The translations under genes and the position numbers were made by a program. From Bdellovibrio bacteriovorus str. Tiberius (lineage in GTDB: Bacteria; Bdellovibrionota; Bdellovibrionia; Bdellovibrionales; Bdellovibrionaceae), in NCBI RefSeq assembly GCF_000317895.1, contig NC_019567.1, positions 372,001 to 436,000 on the forward strand: DNA of 64,000 bases, given 5' to 3'. Every line of letters begins with the position of its first letter. Position 1 is the stretch's first letter. Shown one piece after another: positions 8,086 to 21,377 of the stretch. The notes under the pieces are model-generated. The model had not been told where the DNA came from, did no database searches, and saw only the letters and a list, made by a program, of their open reading frames with translations.

Positions 8086-11000
8086 CTATCCCAGCGGCAG
8101 AATACGTTCAGCGCGGATATTGGTGATGACGCCCACTTTTTCAACCTGGCCGTGGATTTCCAGCAGCGATCTGGTGTAAATCGTGGTGCGGTCCTTTTGA
8201 TAGATCTCGGGGTGAATGACGATGTTCATAAAGCCGAATTCGTCTTCCAGCGTGATAAAACACATTCCTTTGGCGGTGGGCGGGCGCTGAGTGATGGCCA
8301 CCAGACCCGCAACCCGCACCTTGGTTTTTGTTTTCATGCGCTTCAGATCATCCGAAGAAAAATAAGGCACAAAACGTTTTTCGCGCAGAGCTTCGCTTTT
8401 ACTGTGCAGATAGGTTCTAAGTACCGACATCGGGTGGGATTCAACGGAATACCCCTTGCTGTCGTATTCGCGGCGCAGGCGGTCCCAGTTGGATTCAAAC
8501 GGCAGATGTTCAGGTTCATCCTCGTCTTCACCCAGTTCAAATTGCTCTTTGGGGTGCCCCCACAGGAAGCTTTGCTGATCAAGGCTTAAAGATTCCAGAT
8601 TCCAGATCAGTTCCCGCACATTGCCGTTGAAAGATTCAAAAGCACCGGCGGCGGCCAGTTTCAGCAGCATACTGCGGGGAAGCTGCGTGCGACGGATAAA
8701 ATCCGCCAGATCCTGATACAGACCTTCTGTTTTGCGACTGTCTTCAACCCGGCGAAGCAGCGTTTCGGGAATGCCATAGATAGATCTTAACCCCACACGC
8801 AATTGATCACCCGAGGCCGTTTTTTCAATAGTGTAGTCATAGTCAGATTTTTGCACGTCCAAGGGCGCCACCACCACGCCATTTCGCTGGGCTTCGGCGA
8901 TGATCGTGCGGGGCGCGTAAAAGCCCATGGGCTGACTGTTTAAAAGGCCGCAGGCAAACACATCCGGGTAATGACATTTCAGATAACAGCTGGCATAAGT
9001 TAAAAGAGCAAAGCTGGCCGAGTGACTTTCCGGGAAACCATAGTTGGCAAAACCTTCGATGGTTTTATAAATCTGATCGGCGTATTCACTGGAAATCCCG
9101 TGACTGGCAAATCCGGTGCGCAGGCGCTGCTCGATACCACCCATGGTGGCTTTGCGTTTCCACGCGGACGACATCACCCGGCGCAGTTCATCAGCTTCAC
9201 CCGGAGTAAAGTCCGCCACAGCGACCACCATCTTCATCACTTGTTCCTGAAATATGGGAACGCCCATGGTGTTTTTCAGAATCTCCTTTAAAGCGGGATG
9301 CGCATATTTGATTTCTTTCGGCGGATTCTGGCGCAGCTTCAGGAATGGATGCACCATGCCCCCTTGCAAGGGGCCGGGGCGGATCAGGGCGATTTCAATC
9401 ACCAGATCATAAAAGTTTTTGGGCTGCATGCGGGGCAAAGTGTTCATCTGCGCGCGGGACTCAATTTGAAAGACGCCGACAGTTTCCGCGCGGCAGATCA
9501 TGTCGTAAGTGAGTTTGTCATCGGCAGGCAAAGTGGCAAGGCTGTAGTCCTTGCCTTTCACATCACGCAAAAGATCAAAGCACTTGCGCAGACACGTCAG
9601 CATTCCCAGACTTAAAACGTCAATCTTCATCAGGCGCAGGAAGTCCACGTCGTCTTTGTTCCACTGAATGACATAGCGGCCGTTCATGGTGGCTTTTTCC
9701 ACGGGAACCATTTCAGTGATGGGATCCTGAGTGATCAGGAAGCCGCCACTGTGAATTCCCAGATGACGGGGGAATCCGTGCAGCTGCTGAGCCAGCGCCA
9801 TGAACATCTTCCACGGCCCCGGCTCCATGCCGAAATCCGCAGCCACCGCGGGATCCAGCAGGCGCTTCATGCCATCACGGCCCATGAACTTGATCATGGC
9901 ATTGATTTTTGCCAGCGGCATGCCGAACACCTTGGCTGTTTCACGAATGGCCATGCGGGAACGATAACGAATCACCGTGCACACCATGGCCGCGTGGCGT
10001 TCGTTGTATTTTTCATAGATGTGCTGAATCACTTCCTCGCGACGGCTGTGTTCAAAGTCGATATCAATATCCGGCGGTTCGCGCCTTTCACGTGACAGAA
10101 AACGTTCAAACAGCAGATTCATTTGCACCGGATCAATCGCGGTTAATCCCAGACAGAAACACACCACGGAATTGGCCGCCGAACCGCGGCCCTGATAAAG
10201 AATCCCTCTGGATGAAGCGAAATCACAGATCTCTTTCAGAGTCAGAAAGTAATCTTCGTACTGAAGATCTTTGATCAATTCCAACTCGTGCTCGATCTGT
10301 TTTAAGGTTTTGTCAGGAATCCCTTCAGGGTAGCGGTTTTCCGCGCCCTTCAATGTGAGGTGGTGCATGTGTTCGGTGGGAGTCATCCCCAAAGGCAAGC
10401 TGGATGCGGGATAGCGGTAACGTATCTCATTTAGTGAAAACGTCACATGTGCCGAGATCTCCACAGTTTTTTCCACAAGATCCAGGCGGTCTTGCCACAA
10501 CCACGAAATATCATCGAGGCTTTTTAAGCATCTCTCAGAATTCTGAATCAGTTTGTTTTTCGCCTCTGCCAAAGTGGTGTGATGAAGAGTGCAGGTCAGA
10601 ACATCAAACAAAGGTTTGCGTTCCGGACTGTGCATGAACGGGCGCTGGGTAACAAACAGACGCGCCTGGTATTTTTCTTCCAGCGCAAAGCCCTGTCGGC
10701 AGAATTCCTGGGATTCCCAGGTCAGATCCCGCCACAGCGGCAGATACAGGCGGTTGTCGAAAATCTTTTCAAGTTTTTCATAGCGTTCGTCCGTCCACGG
10801 CGGGATGGCCAGGCACAAAAGACCCTGATTGTATTTTTCAATCTGTTCCAGACTGAGTTTGGAAAAACCCTTGGCCGCCTGACGTTTTCCCAATGTCAGA
10901 ATTTCACACAGATGCGAATAACCCTGTTTGTTCATCGGGATCAGCACGACGGAGCTTTCATCGGTCAAAGTCAGCTCTGAACCAATCAGATAATGAAAGC

Positions 11001-11280
11001 CTTCCTTCACTTGCGGCGAAGCGGTGAACAAAGAAGGTGACTGAATGGTCTGAAAACCGCGGACCACGCCGTACAGGCCGTTCAGATCACACAGCGCCAT
11101 ACCGTCGTAACCGAACTCCACGGCTTGCGACACCATCTCTTCAGGACTGGAAGCCCCTTGCAGAAACGAAAAATTACTGCGACCCAGAAGTTCGACGAAG
11201 CCTTTGGCGCGCGGCCGGGGTTTGGCCGGCAGCCTGGAATTTTGTGAAGCAATCAAAGCTTTATTAGTCAAAGTACCCAT
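8086..11280 (-). CDS. dnaE2: Error-prone DNA polymerase DnaE2 (ImuC)
   Basis: 1064 residues, usual for DnaE2. Order: a degenerate PHP domain (ELLGRSNFSFLQGAS at 30-44, with the metal His of replicative DnaE lost), then the C-family polymerase core with GRGSAANS near 366 and the catalytic aspartates in PDIDIDF (403-409), then fingers, a helix-hairpin-helix region and a C-terminal OB fold (KVRVAGLVAITQRPP). Known to carry out translesion synthesis together with ImuA and ImuB after SOS induction. Its start overlaps the imuB end by 17 nt, so translation is probably coupled. Confidence 0.96.
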   Translation of the reverse strand: MGTLTNKALIASQNSRLPAKPRPRAKGFVELLGRSNFSFLQGASSPEEMVSQAVEFGYDGMALCDLNGLYGVVRGFQTIQSPSLFTASPQVKEGFHYLIGSELTLTDESSVVLIPMNKQGYSHLCEILTLGKRQAAKGFSKLSLEQIEKYNQGLLCLAIPPWTDERYEKLEKIFDNRLYLPLWRDLTWESQEFCRQGFALEEKYQARLFVTQRPFMHSPERKPLFDVLTCTLHHTTLAEAKNKLIQNSERCLKSLDDISWLWQDRLDLVEKTVEISAHVTFSLNEIRYRYPASSLPLGMTPTEHMHHLTLKGAENRYPEGIPDKTLKQIEHELELIKDLQYEDYFLTLKEICDFASSRGILYQGRGSAANSVVCFCLGLTAIDPVQMNLLFERFLSRERREPPDIDIDFEHSRREEVIQHIYEKYNERHAAMVCTVIRYRSRMAIRETAKVFGMPLAKINAMIKFMGRDGMKRLLDPAVAADFGMEPGPWKMFMALAQQLHGFPRHLGIHSGGFLITQDPITEMVPVEKATMNGRYVIQWNKDDVDFLRLMKIDVLSLGMLTCLRKCFDLLRDVKGKDYSLATLPADDKLTYDMICRAETVGVFQIESRAQMNTLPRMQPKNFYDLVIEIALIRPGPLQGGMVHPFLKLRQNPPKEIKYAHPALKEILKNTMGVPIFQEQVMKMVVAVADFTPGEADELRRVMSSAWKRKATMGGIEQRLRTGFASHGISSEYADQIYKTIEGFANYGFPESHSASFALLTYASCYLKCHYPDVFACGLLNSQPMGFYAPRTIIAEAQRNGVVVAPLDVQKSDYDYTIEKTASGDQLRVGLRSIYGIPETLLRRVEDSRKTEGLYQDLADFIRRTQLPRSMLLKLAAAGAFESFNGNVRELIWNLESLSLDQQSFLWGHPKEQFELGEDEDEPEHLPFESNWDRLRREYDSKGYSVESHPMSVLRTYLHSKSEALREKRFVPYFSSDDLKRMKTKTKVRVAGLVAITQRPPTAKGMCFITLEDEFGFMNIVIHPEIYQKDRTTIYTRSLLEIHGQVEKVGVITNIRAERILPLG

Positions 11281-12586
11281 GCAAGTAGACCTGTGAATTT
11301 ATGCGATCTTTGAAAACCCACAGCAGTTGACCTTGATGAGAGAGCGCAAAGTAATAATCTCTGTTTTTTAAATCCTGAACTGAAATTTGCCACCAGGCCG
11401 ATTCAATGCGTTCACTGGGAAGGGACGACACAAACCGAAGCTTTTGCACCTCGCCAGTGCTCAGGGCCTGTGGCTTTTCCAGCAGCAGGGACGGGCGCGG
11501 GCTGGAAGCCAGAGCTTTTGCATACACTGATTTGATTTGCAAAGCCTCGTCCTGTCTTTCCACCAGATCCTGAGGTTTAAAGTCCTCGGGCCAGTCGGTC
11601 ACCAGACGGAAACTTTGTTCGGGGAAGTGGCTGGCTTCCATTTGCAGAAAGCCCATTTCACACTGGGATTGTTTTGCAAAGCTGATCAGGCGGCGCCAGC
11701 GGTCCTCGGTGTTGTCCCGGGGTTCAAAGAAATCCAGCTGCTGGATTTTTTCCGGTACATCAAACAAAGTGATTTCAAATTCCCGGATCGGATTTTCCAG
11801 AACCTGCTGTTCTAGTTTCTTGAATAGCAGATCCTCGAACAATTCCTGATCGCGTGTCGGGCTGACGGGTTCAATCGAAAGATTGTAGTGTTTGTCCGAG
11901 TATTCACAGTGTAAAACCACATCCAGGCGCTGCGCATGACGGGCCAAGCCCTGCAGGCGCGCAAACAGAATGTCCAGATGAACCTTGAGCCGGTTCATTA
12001 GCAGGGGGGCGGAACCTAAGGGATCATCCAGGTAGCCATAGCCCACAAGAGGGTCGCGAGGCACAAGAGGTGAAATGACCTGAGAGTCCTGAGAATGCAG
12101 ACGATTCCAAAGTAAAACCCCAAAATCCCCCCAGCGTTCACGCAGTGAATTAAGACGAAAATTCAGAACACCTTCCAGCCCGTACACACCCAGGGTGTGG
12201 AAGAAGGCAATCATGTGCTCGACCGGTTTTTTCTGGGCCCACGGCGAAAGACCTTCAAGATCTTTCAGGGCATCCAGTCCCAGGCCTTTGAAGCTTTCCT
12301 GTTCTTTGCCGCGCAGACTGATATGCGACGGGCGCCATTTCGCCAGCATCTGTGCGCCGGCCGGAGTATCACCAATGGCAGCACTGGCATCCGGAGCAAA
12401 CTTGGCTGCGATTTCCAGCGCTTTTTCAAGGCAGCCCATTTCGCCGCCCATCAAGTGCTGGGTCGAACCAATGTCCACGAAGATATAGTGCGGGAAGCGG
12501 TACTGAACGCGCGGGTTCAGCACCAAAAAGGCCTCAGCTGAGGAGCTTTCTTGCGGTGTTTTTAAATTGATGCATAAAGTTCGCAT
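11264..12586 (-). CDS. imuB: ImuB, non-catalytic Y-family polymerase homologue
   Basis: 440 residues. It aligns with Y-family polymerases but the N-terminal catalytic acidic strip is gone: the first strand reads MRTLCINLKTP where active enzymes have an Asp-rich motif. A beta-clamp binding motif QLDFFEP lies near residue 285, and the C-terminus (SAWWQISVQDL to the end) matches the ImuB-specific tail. In other bacteria ImuB is the hub linking ImuA, DnaE2 and the clamp. It overlaps imuA by 53 nt upstream and dnaE2 by 17 nt downstream. Confidence 0.94.
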   Translation of the reverse strand: MRTLCINLKTPQESSSAEAFLVLNPRVQYRFPHYIFVDIGSTQHLMGGEMGCLEKALEIAAKFAPDASAAIGDTPAGAQMLAKWRPSHISLRGKEQESFKGLGLDALKDLEGLSPWAQKKPVEHMIAFFHTLGVYGLEGVLNFRLNSLRERWGDFGVLLWNRLHSQDSQVISPLVPRDPLVGYGYLDDPLGSAPLLMNRLKVHLDILFARLQGLARHAQRLDVVLHCEYSDKHYNLSIEPVSPTRDQELFEDLLFKKLEQQVLENPIREFEITLFDVPEKIQQLDFFEPRDNTEDRWRRLISFAKQSQCEMGFLQMEASHFPEQSFRLVTDWPEDFKPQDLVERQDEALQIKSVYAKALASSPRPSLLLEKPQALSTGEVQKLRFVSSLPSERIESAWWQISVQDLKNRDYYFALSHQGQLLWVFKDRINSQVYLHGYFD

Positions 12587-13190
12587 GAATCATACTCCCT
12601 GCCAGATTGAACGGCGTCGGACGGTGCAAGGCCCTTTGGATGGTGATAAAGTCGCGTTGAAAATGGATCATCAGACTGAACAGCGGGTTTACAAACTTGC
12701 TGGCTTTCTGATTCACAAAAACCAAAGCGACCTTGTGCAGACGACAAAGTCGTTTCAATTTTTGCAGCTGATGGTTTTTCAAAAACATCTCTTTCAGATT
12801 GCAGCCGATCACTTCAAACAGGGAACTGGTGATGAGTTCCTGCAGCAGCCAGAAAAGCTGTTCATTTTCTTTGGGCTCTTTGACCACCAGCAGTTTTTTC
12901 AGATTGATTTTGTAGTTGCTTAAATGAGCGGGGAAAAGCTGAGCATCCCCGTTGATCCATGCCGCCCACTTGTTTTGGGAATGCACGTTTTGAACGATGC
13001 GAATCCACAAGGAAGTGGCGCCGGTGCCGGGGGCCCCTTGCAACAGGCTGAGGTCGCCTTGCGGGACTCCTTTCCACAGCAGAAAGTCATCCAGGACATT
13101 CACGCCGGTGGAAAGGCCCGGCGGCGGTTGCAGTTGCTCGGCAGAAACAAAGGGGATGTTAGCCAGTTCGGGAAGGGCGAGGGTGCTCAT
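12534..13190 (-). CDS. imuA: ImuA, RecA-like partner of the SOS mutasome
   Basis: 218 residues from the ATG at 13190, which follows GGAGAG with a 6-nt spacer; the longer open frame lacks a ribosome site and would run through the promoter. It keeps a RecA-like ATP loop, LLQGAPGTGATSLWI, after GVNVLDDFLLWKGVPQGD. The rest is divergent, as is usual for ImuA. First gene of the cassette, directly behind a LexA box; the end overlaps imuB by 53 nt. Confidence 0.92.
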   Translation of the reverse strand: MSTLALPELANIPFVSAEQLQPPPGLSTGVNVLDDFLLWKGVPQGDLSLLQGAPGTGATSLWIRIVQNVHSQNKWAAWINGDAQLFPAHLSNYKINLKKLLVVKEPKENEQLFWLLQELITSSLFEVIGCNLKEMFLKNHQLQKLKRLCRLHKVALVFVNQKASKFVNPLFSLMIHFQRDFITIQRALHRPTPFNLAGSMIHANFMHQFKNTARKLLS

Positions 13191-13215
13191 TTGAAGCTCT
13201 CCATTTACATATAAA

Positions 13216-13226
13216 TTACTATGTAA
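13216..13226. promoter_or_regulatory. LexA box of the imuA-imuB-dnaE2 operon
   Basis: The sequence TTACTATGTAA is an exact TTAC-N3-GTAA palindrome, the LexA site I recall being reported for Bdellovibrio, where lexA and a dinP/dnaE cassette were the regulated genes. It abuts the -10 box and lies 25 nt before the imuA ATG, so bound repressor would block initiation. Half-matching TTACATATAA and TTATATGTAA flank it. Confidence 0.88.
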
Positions 13227-13256
13227 ATTATATGTAAGTAAAGAGGCTATTTTCAA
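13227..13256 (-). promoter_or_regulatory. Sigma70-type promoter of the imu operon
   Basis: On the minus strand, -35 TTGAAA (13251-13256) and -10 TATAAT (13227-13232) are separated by 18 nt, with the LexA box immediately downstream. The leader to the imuA ATG is about 30 nt. Confidence 0.75.
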
Positions 13257-13329
13257 ATATGGACCAAAGTTTGTGTTTCTTAAAAGACCCACAAAATCAA
13301 ATATTTAACTTATCTAAATTAGGACCTGA

Positions 13330-16040: not shown

Positions 16041-17060
16041 TTATTCAAACATTCCATCCATGGTGATGTACTTCTGATTGCCACTGGTCATACGAATGGA
16101 CTGATAAAAGCTTTTTTGGCACTGACCGCGCAACAAAGCATCCACCGCGCCGATCATCGCGGTATAGACATAGTCCACGTTCAATACATCCATAGAACTG
16201 ATGACTCCGGAATTTGGCGCCACCGCCCGCGTGCGGCGCAGGAAATGGTCGCGGGAAGCGCAAGCCATCAGCCCAATCACCGGGGCCTGACGGGAAGAAT
16301 CCAGTGCATTTAGCATCTTGTTAAACCCAGGCCGCTTGGCTTTGTAATAGCCGCTGTAATTCAGCTTGTTTGTGCCGGGAAGAAAAACGGGAGGATAGAA
16401 ATCAGGTCCCCCGCCGTTACGGGCATGCCCAAAGTAAAAGACGGCGTCGGCTTCCCGCAAAGAACGCGTGAAAAAGTCATCCGCATAGCGAGATCTTTGA
16501 TTTTGAGTATCGCGGTATCTTCCCAGGTTTTCTGACAGAATTTCAGTCGCGGAAGAAAAGCGAATTTCCACACGGGCCAGGATCTTTTTTCCATGGATGG
16601 TGACTTCGCGAGTGAATAGTGAACTGTTCTGCGGATCTTTGCGGAAGCCGCAGAAGCGGGCCTTGCCGCCGCAAGAAGACGTCAAAAGATCTTTCAGGGC
16701 CTCGTAGGCACCGATGTCCAAGGAAGGACTGACGCCGTAACTGCGCCCGGCGTAATGCACGTTGCTTCCGGTTGTCCAGTCGAAGTAGCCGATGGCGATG
16801 CGAATATCCAAAGTGTTGTCATTGATAATGGTGCCATAGCGTTTGTAGCAGGCATTGCGCTGGGATGATTCCAGGGTTTTGGGATCATCCGTGCTTTTGT
16901 CTTCAAGCAGGGACAGATAACGCCATCCCATGGATGAAAAACTGGTTTCGTAAATGTAGCCGACATTTCGTTTTCCGAACCCCCAGCCTGCCAAAGATTC
17001 TTCAGCGAAGGCAAACAGGGCGGCAGTCAGCAGCAGTGCTGATGGCAAAATCATTTTCAT
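16041..17060 (-). CDS. Secreted caspase/CHAT-like (clan CD) protein, putative cysteine protease
   Basis: 339 residues. A signal peptide ends near residue 24 (ESLAG). The C-terminal half has the two motifs of caspase-fold enzymes in the right order and spacing: a hydrophobic strand ending in His (ADAVFYFGHARNGGG, His212) and, 55 residues on, a strand ending in Ala-Cys (PVIGLMACASRDHF, Cys267). This fits the His-Cys dyad of clan CD families (caspase, CHAT, C25). Whether it is active, and its cut site, are unknown. The ATG follows GGAGGGG. Export suggests action in the envelope or on prey. Confidence 0.72.
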   Translation of the reverse strand: MKMILPSALLLTAALFAFAEESLAGWGFGKRNVGYIYETSFSSMGWRYLSLLEDKSTDDPKTLESSQRNACYKRYGTIINDNTLDIRIAIGYFDWTTGSNVHYAGRSYGVSPSLDIGAYEALKDLLTSSCGGKARFCGFRKDPQNSSLFTREVTIHGKKILARVEIRFSSATEILSENLGRYRDTQNQRSRYADDFFTRSLREADAVFYFGHARNGGGPDFYPPVFLPGTNKLNYSGYYKAKRPGFNKMLNALDSSRQAPVIGLMACASRDHFLRRTRAVAPNSGVISSMDVLNVDYVYTAMIGAVDALLRGQCQKSFYQSIRMTSGNQKYITMDGMFE

Positions 17061-17140
17061 GGGTCCCCTCCAGGATTTCCAGAATAGAAAATGCGGCCGG
17101 ATTCAGCTACAAAAACCAAAGCTTGTTGTGTAAGTGCAAA

Positions 17141-17800
17141 TCAGGAACGGTAGATGGAAAAATGCGCGAAGTGCTGGGGATTCTGAATGGCCGTCAGCCA
17201 AGGGTGATCCTTGTGAATGCAGAATCTGGACAATTTTCCGCGGGCCACCACAGTGATGGACTGGCGTCTGGCAAGATCTTTCAGGTCGTTCAGGGTTTTC
17301 TCAACGGATCTTTGATTGCCGAAATCAAAGATGAAATAAATGTCCGCCGCCGGGGGAATAAAATCGGTGGTTGAAAGATCCTGTGATAGCGCATTCAGAT
17401 TCTTTCCCGTGTGATGGAAATAAACCCGTTGGGCCTCATGGACACGCAAAGACTCCAGCTCAAAGCCGGTGAAGCGGCAGCCGGGATAGTGGCGATGCAG
17501 GACAAAGGCCATCCGTGCATAAGCGCATCCCAGATCCACGATGTGTTGACCCGGTTGTGGCTGCAACAGATCCAGAATGTTGTGAATCTCGCAGTAAGGG
17601 GTTTGAAAAGCCTGTAGGGAAAGGTGTTCCCAGTTCTGATGTTCGCCCGCGTTTTTTGGCAGGGCGCGGATTTGATTTTCCACCTCAAGGCACTGAAAGC
17701 CCAGCCAGTCGTCCACCAATGCCGCATGGGCTTGGGCTTCGTGATAGGCATAGTCCGTCAGGGGCATCAGGGGGAAAGGGTTTTGCGGATCAAAGATCAT
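17141..17800 (-). CDS. SAM-dependent methyltransferase, class I
   Basis: 219 residues. Motif I is HIVDLGCAYARMAFVL near residues 89-104, followed by an acidic residue at the next strand end (FTGFELES). The IYFIFDFGNQRS stretch occupies the motif IV region. Substrate unknown. The ATG overlaps the stop of the upstream hydrolase gene by 4 nt (ATGA), so the two are translationally coupled, and the pair follows the AceE-like gene. Confidence 0.8.
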   Translation of the reverse strand: MIFDPQNPFPLMPLTDYAYHEAQAHAALVDDWLGFQCLEVENQIRALPKNAGEHQNWEHLSLQAFQTPYCEIHNILDLLQPQPGQHIVDLGCAYARMAFVLHRHYPGCRFTGFELESLRVHEAQRVYFHHTGKNLNALSQDLSTTDFIPPAADIYFIFDFGNQRSVEKTLNDLKDLARRQSITVVARGKLSRFCIHKDHPWLTAIQNPQHFAHFSIYRS

Positions 17801-18561
17801 GTCAAAGGGGTTGCGACACTGTTCAGGAATTTTTCCAGCGTGGGCGCGTATTCGGATTTGAAATCACGCAATCCAGTCAAATGACCCGCCTCGGGCAGGG
17901 AAAGCTTGGTCCAATCCAGATTCGTGTGCGGTTCAAACACGTGGTCGATGTGATCCGGCGGAATCAGCAGGTCCTTCCAGCCACGAATGGAAAGAATCTT
18001 AAAGCCCTGCGGGAAGGTCTTTAGATCCTTGTCCAAATCCTTGTGCAGGAACGGACTCCAGGCAAGACTCAGCACCGGGGTCAAAGCCAGACGCAGTGGC
18101 AAAGGGCGGATCTTGTATTCGTGCGTGTAAAGGTTGTAAGCCGACGGAATGAACTTTCCGGAAGGTCCGCTGTCACACACCAATGCCACGGTGTCGCTGC
18201 AATTGCGACGGGCCATGGCTTCAATTGCCGAAGCCGTGGGATTTGAAAACGAGAAGATGATTTTTCTGCCGGGCACCTGATTCAACAGGGTTTCGATCTG
18301 ATCAGCATAGATATGTTTAAGCCCGAATCCGCCTTTGGAGCTGATTGGCAGTTTGAGTGATGTCAGATCTTTGTGGGTGCCGGTAAGATTGAAAGCGAAG
18401 GCATCAAAACCCATTTCATTGACGAGCTTGATGTGACGAAGCAGCTGTTTTTTGCTGCCTTCGAAGAAGTGAACGAAAAAGACGACTTCTTCAAAACGTT
18501 TGCTGCGGGAATAAAAGAACTCCCCATCGAAGGGGAGTTCTTGTTTTTGCGTTTTGCGCAT
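17797..18561 (-). CDS. Alpha/beta-hydrolase-fold protein with atypical nucleophile elbow
   Basis: 254 residues from the ATG at 18561, which shares one base with the upstream stop (TAATG). The fold is suggested by VVFFVHFFEGSKKQL (oxyanion region), IIFSFSNPTASAI (nucleophile elbow), WKDLLIPPDHID (acid) and PEAGHL (catalytic His). The elbow reads S-F-S-N-P rather than G-x-S-x-G, so activity is uncertain. Coupled at both ends: 1 nt with the AceE-like gene and 4 nt with the methyltransferase. Confidence 0.78.
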   Translation of the reverse strand: MRKTQKQELPFDGEFFYSRSKRFEEVVFFVHFFEGSKKQLLRHIKLVNEMGFDAFAFNLTGTHKDLTSLKLPISSKGGFGLKHIYADQIETLLNQVPGRKIIFSFSNPTASAIEAMARRNCSDTVALVCDSGPSGKFIPSAYNLYTHEYKIRPLPLRLALTPVLSLAWSPFLHKDLDKDLKTFPQGFKILSIRGWKDLLIPPDHIDHVFEPHTNLDWTKLSLPEAGHLTGLRDFKSEYAPTLEKFLNSVATPLT

Positions 18562-21377
18562 TAGTGTTTCTGGCTGTGAGTTGCGGATGGCCACAAATCA
18601 GTCCAGTGAGCGGCTTTGTGGGAAGCCTGGTTTGCTTCGCCCAATGCCTGTTCAGAAACCATGACTTTTTCAAGAGCGGTTTCAGAAAGAACCTTGCCGC
18701 AAGCCTCAACGATCGAAGCGTCGTCAAGGTGGTGATACTTGAAGATCTCAGAAGGGCGACCGCACTTGGAGTGTTTGCGAACCGCAAGGCATTCCTGACG
18801 AACACCAATGATAGAACCCAAGTTATCCAACAGACCTGCTTCACCATCGTGAACGCTGACAACAGGAACACGGCGACCCGCAACAGTGATCAGATCACCA
18901 GTAGAGATCTCTTCTGCTTTTTTCAGGTAAAGATCCGCATTGATGCCCAGTTCGTTGCGCAGATAATGGTAATCGTTTTCGTGCGCCTGGATACCAGTCA
19001 ACAAATCAGATGAAGTCACCACGATCACGTTGGCATAGATACCACGAGCCAGAAGAGCTTCGGAAGCTTTCATGGCTTCAGCCACCAAGGCACCCATTGC
19101 GAAGATGTTGATCACGTTGTCGCCCGGCTCATATCCTGCGTAACCACGGTAATCAATCAGGAAGTACGCACCTTTCAGAACGTCTTCACGAACAACGGCG
19201 AACATTTCTGCTTCGCTCATCGCTGCCACTTCTTCTTCGTTCACTGCGCCCGCCACCGGGAATTCCGCGCGGGACAGTTTGCCTTCCAGACCCACTTTGA
19301 AGCGGGCTTGTTTGGAAAGATACTTCGTGAAGTCCTTTTGTTCTGCGCCACGAGTCACCAGACGAAGCAATACGCCGGAGCGGCCTGCGTTGTCGTTCAA
19401 TACGTGTCTGCGGATCGCATCCACCATGATCCAGTCAAGCTCTTGGCAGAAGTATGGTTCCCAAGTGATTTGATTTGGAATCTGAACGTCAGATTTCCAA
19501 CCGTGCTGAGCACCTTCCGGAGAAAGTGTCACACCTGATGGCGTGCCCACGCAGATGAAAGAGGACTTCCAGTAAAGGTTGTAGAAGTACTGATCCAGTG
19601 CACGTTTCAGGAAGAAGTCATAAACGGTCATCAATGGGATGATTGGCACGCCCACGATATCACGCATTTTTCCGAATGCGCCCACGCAGGACATAACGTT
19701 GCCTTCTGCGATTTCAAAGCGCAGGAAACGATCCGTAACGTCTTCACCAGGAACCAGATCCGGAAGTTTGCCGTCTTTTACGCCCAGCTCAGCCTCGATG
19801 TCCTGAACTTCCTGAGCACCGAAGATCTTGCCATCCATCGCTGGATTCAAGTTCGTCGAAGTACCCACGTCCGGAGCCATGGAGATGAACAATTCACCCG
19901 GCAGCTTGAACGGTTTTTCATTGTCAGTCAGGGCTTTCTGGCCCGCTTTCAATTCAGATTCATTCAAAGATGTATTGGAGATACGAGTCAGTTTTGCAGT
20001 CAACTGGCCCAGCATCCACTGCGTGTGCGGGTAGCTTGTCATCTTCGTGTTGATTTCCAAAGAAGATGGCATGTCGCCGAACTCAGCAAGTTTAGTCAGG
20101 AAGTAATCCTGATTTTTTGCTTTCAGAGCATTTTGAGCTTTGATGTCAGCATAGATTTTCTCGCCGCGAGCGGAAAGGAATTTGCCTTCAACGGATTTGT
20201 CATCAAAGCGAGCATAAAGTGTATTGCCAGTGATGCCTTGTTTTGCGCGCAGTTCTTCAACTTCATCTTCGTGTGGAAGAGAAGAGTGGTTACCCTGCTG
20301 AGCCGCCGCTTTCAAGCCCCAGCCCTTAAGGGTGTGAGCGATGATGATGGTTGGCTTGCGCTTGGATTCTTTGGATTTCATCATGGCTTTCGCCAGGGAC
20401 ATCATATCGTGTCCACCGAAATCACGAAGAGCTTCGTAAACGTCCTGGTCCGCAGTCGCAGTCAGGAATTTTTTAAGAGACGGATAGTCCTTGGCCAAAG
20501 TGTCTTTAAGCAGCTTCAGGTCATGAACCAAAAGCAACGCCTGAAGGTCGTAATCAGTCAGTTCTTTTTCAAGGAAGTTTTTGAAGGCTTCGCCTTCTTT
20601 TTTCGCGAACAAAGCTTCACGCTTGCCGCCGTGACGAACCTGGATCACTTCCCAGCCGTTGGCAGCCATTGTTCTTTCAACACGGTCTGCATCCGTACCA
20701 CCCAAAATCGCATTGTTCACCAGACGGTGACCATCCAGGGATTGACGGTTGTAATCTAGAATCCAAGTCAGGTTGCCGATTTCACGTTCAGAGAAGTCAG
20801 GCACCGCTTCGTACATGGAACCTTCACGGAATTCAGAGTCACCGCAAACAGCCCAGAAGTGAGCGTCTTTAGGTACATCGTAACCGTGCTCAGAAGCATA
20901 ACGGTAAGCCAAAGCCATGTAACCCGCTTCAACAGGTGGAATACCCACAGAGCCAGACGGGAAGAAGTTGTGTTGATCCGGATCGTACGCAGAGTGGTAG
21001 GACTGGAACACATATTCGTCACCGTTAGTGAACTTACGAAGACCGTGCATAGCCTGGTTGGCTTCATCCAAAGAAAGTTTGGAAAGATCGGACTTCAGCA
21101 AATTGTCCAAAAGATAGTTGTAAGCATGGTCTGTTGGGGATGCATGCGGTTTGTTCGCGATGTGATCGAAACCGGATTTTACCAACAGGTGCAAAGCACC
21201 CATGATGTGAAGGGAGCTTGCGCAGCCGGCCGGGTGACCACCAATTTTTGGGTCGCCTTTTTCTTTGTCGGTGCGGTGATTGGCTTGCCAGATCATCTGG
21301 GTAGCCAGGTAATGGGCACGTCTAGCGATAGAGTCCAGAACCTCAGGTTTTGCGTTTTTGAGATTAGTGTTATCCAC
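18561..21377 (-). CDS. AceE-like pyruvate dehydrogenase E1 / transketolase-family thiamine-diphosphate enzyme
   Basis: 938 residues, near the size of homodimeric AceE (about 890). The N-terminal domain has GGHPAGCASSLHIMGAL and the cofactor site CGDSEFREGSMYEA ending in DYNRQSLDG; the usual GDG is GDS here. Next come GGHDMMSLAKAM and IIIAHTLKGWGL, both as in AceE. The pyrimidine and C-terminal transketolase domains follow (EGAQHGWKSD, VVTSSDLLTGIQ). No E2 or E3 genes are adjacent, so its exact reaction (pyruvate dehydrogenase or another 2-oxoacid or ketose reaction) is open. Starts at a GTG after AGGAG; leads a three-gene coupled operon. Confidence 0.85.
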   Translation of the reverse strand: MDNTNLKNAKPEVLDSIARRAHYLATQMIWQANHRTDKEKGDPKIGGHPAGCASSLHIMGALHLLVKSGFDHIANKPHASPTDHAYNYLLDNLLKSDLSKLSLDEANQAMHGLRKFTNGDEYVFQSYHSAYDPDQHNFFPSGSVGIPPVEAGYMALAYRYASEHGYDVPKDAHFWAVCGDSEFREGSMYEAVPDFSEREIGNLTWILDYNRQSLDGHRLVNNAILGGTDADRVERTMAANGWEVIQVRHGGKREALFAKKEGEAFKNFLEKELTDYDLQALLLVHDLKLLKDTLAKDYPSLKKFLTATADQDVYEALRDFGGHDMMSLAKAMMKSKESKRKPTIIIAHTLKGWGLKAAAQQGNHSSLPHEDEVEELRAKQGITGNTLYARFDDKSVEGKFLSARGEKIYADIKAQNALKAKNQDYFLTKLAEFGDMPSSLEINTKMTSYPHTQWMLGQLTAKLTRISNTSLNESELKAGQKALTDNEKPFKLPGELFISMAPDVGTSTNLNPAMDGKIFGAQEVQDIEAELGVKDGKLPDLVPGEDVTDRFLRFEIAEGNVMSCVGAFGKMRDIVGVPIIPLMTVYDFFLKRALDQYFYNLYWKSSFICVGTPSGVTLSPEGAQHGWKSDVQIPNQITWEPYFCQELDWIMVDAIRRHVLNDNAGRSGVLLRLVTRGAEQKDFTKYLSKQARFKVGLEGKLSRAEFPVAGAVNEEEVAAMSEAEMFAVVREDVLKGAYFLIDYRGYAGYEPGDNVINIFAMGALVAEAMKASEALLARGIYANVIVVTSSDLLTGIQAHENDYHYLRNELGINADLYLKKAEEISTGDLITVAGRRVPVVSVHDGEAGLLDNLGSIIGVRQECLAVRKHSKCGRPSEIFKYHHLDDASIVEACGKVLSETALEKVMVSEQALGEANQASHKAAHWTDLWPSATHSQKH

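Follow-up and report, generated by a model that had tools for sequence, protein, structure and literature searches.

The gene described here raises the question of whether Bdellovibrio bacteriovorus str. Tiberius exports a cysteine peptidase with a caspase-like fold and, if so, to which family such a protein would belong and what it would do for a predatory bacterium. The gene lies within a 64-kb window, the whole stretch of DNA that was analysed, which corresponds to positions 372001-436000 of the single-contig genome of 3,988,594 bases. As read from the sequence, the open reading frame starts with ATG and encodes 339 amino acids (Table 1). Comparison with the two nearest orthologues gave a dN/dS of ~0.04-0.06, indicating that this is a real, constrained gene, and orthologues were found in 21 of the 24 genomes of the genus, its own included.

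A previous sequence-only reading had proposed an exported caspase-fold protein in which a signal peptide precedes a His strand and an Ala-Cys strand 55 residues apart. All of these elements were confirmed from the sequence and its homologues: the motif YFGHARNGGG provides His212 and GLMACASRD provides Cys267, with a spacing of exactly 55 residues. Conservation of the pair was one of two tests, the other being the predicted fold, that had been named beforehand as able to refute the proposal. Both residues were invariant, initially in 60/60 homologues and subsequently in all of the 85 distinct homologues collected, down to ~20% identity. Such invariance, together with the strong purifying selection, indicates that the His-Cys pair is not a chance occurrence. 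The His precedes the Cys in the 85 sequences, as in clan CD peptidases, the catalytic role being presumed from sequence, and N178, Q186, G211, R214 and G218 were also found in every homologue. The motif conserved around the presumed catalytic His is GHSRxGGGPD.

The N-terminus, MKMILPSALLLTAALFAFAEESLA, contains a hydrophobic core and an S-L-A site of the signal peptidase I type. An N-terminal hydrophobic stretch was present in 75 of 82 homologues, versus 4 of 85 internal control segments, and some homologues contain lipobox-like sequences. The protein is thus predicted to be exported, residing in the periplasm or being secreted further. Its cysteines are exactly five, Cys267 and two pairs. 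Cys130 and Cys137 were both present in 78/85 homologues and both absent from six, with one exception; Cys71 and Cys314 were both present in 74/85 and both absent from five, the exceptions being mostly truncated copies. Joint retention or loss of this kind is what two disulfides would produce in an exported protein, suggesting that the four other cysteines form two such bonds. Four homologues from Bacteriovoracaceae and Verrucomicrobia (L110, L113, L114 and L115) retain the His and the Cys and lack most of the four putative disulfide cysteines; in L114 and L115 a clear hydrophobic segment at the N-terminus is missing too.

Table 1. Features of the putative caspase-fold gene and its neighbour in the window, and partner genes in other lineages (locus:coordinates)
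Feature	Position	Strand	Evidence or context
CDS of putative exported caspase-fold protein (339 aa plus stop codon)	16041..17060	-	Open reading frame; 21/24 genus genomes; dN/dS
Shine-Dalgarno-like GGAGGGG, four bases 5' of ATG	17065..17071	-	Direct sequence reading
Putative signal peptide, residues 1-24, predicted cleavage after ESLA	16989..17060	-	Hydrophobic N-terminus; residues 1-30 of low pLDDT; 75/82 homologues alike
Predicted caspase-like catalytic domain, residues 80-322	16095..16823	-	AlphaFold2 models of window protein and minimal homologue
His212, immediately following strand 206-210; presumed general base	16425..16427	-	Invariant in 85/85; model position
Cys267, immediately following strand 261-265; presumed nucleophile	16260..16262	-	Invariant in 85/85; model position
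Cys71, putative disulfide partner of Cys314	16848..16850	-	Joint presence or absence among 85 homologues
Cys314, putative disulfide partner of Cys71	16119..16121	-	Joint presence or absence among 85 homologues
Cys130, putative disulfide partner of Cys137	16671..16673	-	Joint presence or absence among 85 homologues
Cys137, putative disulfide partner of Cys130	16650..16652	-	Joint presence or absence among 85 homologues
265-aa upstream same-strand neighbour, without Pfam match	17797..18594	-	Kept through the genus
HEAT-repeat partner genes	L096:3132-3887, L104:3213-3932, L084:2994-3737, ~24 other loci		Directly upstream of caspase-fold gene
Trypsin-like serine protease genes, lipoprotein-like N-terminus	L032:5006-5941, L068:2721-3704, L070:2864-3922, L072:2835-3866		Upstream of caspase-fold gene

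Searches of the protein and its homologues against Pfam, NCBIfam, PADLOC and PHROGs gave no credible match, and a sequence profile search of the PDB gave a single, meaningless one (E 2.7). Among 54 members, none matched the Pfam families C11, C13, C14, C25, C50 or CHAT above the curated cut-offs. The best peptidase match was to Peptidase_C50 (separase) in L022, with an E-value of 0.07 and a score of 12.7 bits (cut-off 27.8); it spans residues 176-199, in the region of the strand that precedes the presumed catalytic His, and can be regarded as only a lead. The cation-chloride cotransporter C-terminal domain PF21555 matched six of the 54 members, with E-values down to 4.8e-4, below its cut-off. 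Where inspected, that match was confined to the region of the Cys strand, and it was discarded as a general alpha/beta resemblance. Comparison by hhalign with C11 and C25 sets from the same phylum gave no match; this test has no power, since C11 and C25, undoubted clan CD families, failed to find each other (4.5%). The insignificant alignment with C25 superposed the His-strand regions YxGHS and YxGHG. Literature searches for caspase-like proteins of Bdellovibrio and for the gene itself, under Bd numbers guessed from its location in the genome, brought up no relevant paper. With no sequence match in Pfam, NCBIfam, PHROGs or the PDB, the family is apparently an undescribed, clan-CD-like one.

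A Gly adjacent to the His is common to clan CD families (PMC4357240), usually in the order His-Gly. In the family described here the Gly comes before the His (G211, 85/85), and the residue that follows is Ser in 64 homologues, Ala in 20, Trp in one and Gly in none, giving Gly-His-Ser/Ala. Careful filing on this account makes the protein a candidate new clan-CD-like family, as judged from sequence and models.

With a profile search, 78 of the 242 Bdellovibrionota genomes were found to encode a relative; further members came from Elusimicrobia (L079, L082) and Verrucomicrobia (L113-L115) when species-representative genomes were scanned. The gene was not found in G012, G014 and G016, three Bdellovibrio genomes that are 99-100% complete. 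Some longer proteins of 400-450 amino acids (G008:C3:89931-90647, G163:C80:73805-74845 and G018:C1:2009429-2009764), a number of them in two pieces, matched the family profile weakly and could represent a sister family that branches more deeply and carries an insertion.

Gene neighbourhoods differ between lineages. In 27 of the 85 homologues, all outside Bdellovibrio, a gene for an exported HEAT-repeat protein is located directly upstream, usually with overlapping frames. This partner has a hydrophobic N-terminus in 24 of 26 cases, a Pfam HEAT match in L096 (2.7e-6) and, as a family, a conserved Cys pair near the C-terminal end. In L105 and L116, which belong to separate branches of the tree, the HEAT and caspase-fold domains are fused. 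Another four homologues have a trypsin-like protease gene directly upstream, which could encode an activating protease for the caspase-fold protein. In the tree, one half has HEAT partners, and the other holds the Bdellovibrio clade together with the clade linked to trypsin (SH-aLRT 86-88; the root is arbitrary). No HEAT partner was found in the Tiberius genome, and no convincing match to it in the genus.

In Bdellovibrio, the 265-aa neighbour lies 4-73 bases upstream of the orthologue in L061-L065, while in the Tiberius window a methyltransferase gene (17141-17800) is placed between the two; the 265-aa and caspase-fold genes may share one transcript. By eye, the 265-aa protein resembles an alpha/beta hydrolase. 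Genes for caspase-like and alpha/beta-hydrolase proteins adjoin in prokaryotic conflict systems (PMC7159879), and the likeness of the present pairing to those may be a coincidence. Elsewhere in the window, three minus-strand genes in a row (8086-13292), encoding a 1064-aa DnaE-type polymerase and proteins of 440 and 252 amino acids, look by eye like an ImuA-ImuB-DnaE2 mutagenesis cassette, and positions 9-1592 appear to encode a serine protease of the subtilisin type that ends in a proprotein-convertase-like domain.

Structure prediction with AlphaFold2 gave an alpha/beta/alpha model of the window protein (55 sequences, pLDDT 92.2, pTM 0.88) and a model of the 237-aa domain of L104, a minimal homologue ~28% identical to it (52 sequences, pLDDT 94.4, pTM 0.92). 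Both share one layout, in which helices and strands alternate, the His comes directly after one strand and the Cys directly after the next. The clan CD dyad is placed at the C-terminal ends of beta3 and beta4 (PMC4357240), and His212 and Cys267 are predicted to occupy the ends of the corresponding strands. The order of elements could fit the clan CD core sheet, 2-1-3-4 with helices 1-3, but Foldseek matches were weak and mixed with GTPases: for the window protein none reached an E-value of 0.001 and TM-scores were low, the highest probabilities among the matches listed being those of separase (5mz6, 0.92), Csx29 (8eey, 0.90) and a secreted C11 peptidase (6n9j, 0.72). For the L104 domain, SAVED-CHAT (8tl0) had a probability of 0.90, with the highest TMq (0.43) and the lowest rmsd (6.3) among the 50 matches listed. 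A viral fold library searched with the caspase-fold protein returned nothing useful. Of the caspase sheet in the original proposal, the order of secondary-structure elements thus stood, while the fold searches lent it little; an exported protein of caspase-like fold with a His-Cys dyad is supported by the models, the invariance and the N-termini.

The same searches gave rise to a different reading, a Rossmann-like or GTPase-like alpha/beta protein whose His and Cys would serve binding or structure instead of catalysis. Toc34 and Rac1 ranked first for the window protein, and the best E-values for the L104 domain belonged to ARF and G-alpha GTPases (7.9e-5), not to peptidases. Ras and caspase sheets differ mainly in one extra edge strand and in the direction of the last strand; because they share most of their order, cross-matches with GTPases are to be expected. 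The P-loop GxxxxGK[ST] was not found after strand 1 in the 85 proteins, with four chance matches to a loose pattern elsewhere in the sequence, and the protein would be exported to where GTP is lacking, for which reasons the GTPase reading was rejected as very improbable. Residues used only for binding are, in addition, rarely 100% invariant at 20% identity. It is somewhat easier to accept, although still unlikely, that the fold carries a thiol enzyme other than an endopeptidase, namely a transpeptidase/ligase or an amidase with envelope peptides or crosslinks as its substrates. A passage in PMC9604545 ascribes ligase besides protease activity to legumain, a clan CD member; export would bring the protein near peptidoglycan and lipoproteins, and the conserved set (GHSRxGGGPD, invariant R214, N178 and Q186, no Gly after the His) is odd for clan CD. 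However, the closest matches in fold that have a similar dyad are proteases, and the partners recognised were HEAT repeats and trypsin, with no linkage to peptidoglycan or lipoprotein genes observed.

A further proposal concerns the role of the protein and is compatible with a peptidase: an effector released into prey, attacking envelope or cytoplasmic proteins. Predators use many secreted hydrolases, and the predicted export and the conservation in most Bdellovibrio genomes would fit such a role; the sequence-only reading had likewise suggested action on the prey or host envelope. Against this, the family reaches into Elusimicrobia and Verrucomicrobia, and some Bdellovibrio can do without it, as the three near-complete genomes lacking the gene indicate, which leaves a prey role unsupported. 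The gene is also located amid housekeeping genes, among them those for a transketolase-type enzyme and an O6-methylguanine DNA methyltransferase, and the literature search linked no expression or proteomic data to it. A role on prey is possible, and we consider the effector proposal improbable.

Among known systems, separase (C50) likewise has its His before its Cys on consecutive strands, and it is approached by the weak fold match and the sub-threshold Pfam match described above. It joins an alpha-solenoid to a protease domain, to which the HEAT repeats of the relatives of the window protein may be likened. Separase is, however, a giant nuclear protein of eukaryotes without significant sequence similarity to the present family, whose members are exported, ~240-340 amino acids long and disulfide-bearing by prediction, with GHS or GHA instead of GHG. 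The CHAT proteases (Csx29/Craspase and SAVED-CHAT), also weak fold matches, are bacterial, and Csx29 has a repeat domain; unlike the family described here, they are cytoplasmic defence proteins. The CHAT Pfam model matched neither this family nor any of 78 Bdellovibrionota genomes.

Export is well known among clan CD peptidases, C11 and C25 being examples, so the accompanying claim that bacterial members are mostly cytoplasmic or multidomain was overstated; in the same phylum, Pfam C11 was found in 28/94 genomes and C25 in 34/94. Neither is present in the Tiberius genome, from which C14 is also missing. Clostripain-type C11 peptidases, including the Bacteroides structure matched weakly by Foldseek, are secreted bacterial clan CD proteins as well, without a Pfam C11 match to the family; their motif is His-Gly...Ala-Cys (PMC12445089). 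The gingipains (C25) are also exported, are longer proteins and have no significant similarity to the family. YabG, a sporulation-specific coat-processing protease of Bacillus and Clostridioides, was recently proposed as a clan CD family on the basis of its dyad and modelling, without sequence similarity (PMC12445089), and by description provides a precedent for filing the present family in the clan.

A secreted protein with a caspase-like fold, a conserved dyad and, in other lineages, an exported HEAT partner is probably a periplasmic protease. We consider it likely, from sequence and models, that the window protein is a cysteine endopeptidase of an undescribed family, with a fold of the caspase/haemoglobinase type. 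It would be exported through Sec, stabilised by its disulfides and kept in the periplasm or secreted further; His212 would act as the base that activates Cys267, and this nucleophile would attack the peptide bond that follows a favoured P1 residue. One half of the family has an exported HEAT solenoid, encoded upstream or fused, that probably binds the protease and controls or feeds it, either selecting substrates or restraining activity, a pairing comparable in build to separase or TPR-CHAT. The Bdellovibrio branch has no HEAT partner, and its own N-terminal helices (residues 36-78) could possibly serve instead. More tentatively, and with somewhat less than even confidence, the new clan CD family could be a periplasmic, separase-like machine of HEAT solenoid and caspase-fold protease, widespread in Bdellovibrionota, from which Bdellovibrio lacks the HEAT subunit and in which a related branch has a trypsin that may be activating.

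If this is correct, the caspase clan would gain a family that acts outside the cytoplasm and is recognised by none of the domain libraries searched. Its setting is a phylum with 0/78 genomes for CHAT and a strain whose genome lacks C14, C11 and C25. That an exported HEAT partner recurs, and is fused in two homologues, suggests that the pairing of a caspase-fold protease with an alpha-solenoid occurs in bacterial envelopes too. For Bdellovibrio, a strongly conserved candidate protease gene is now named and open to test.
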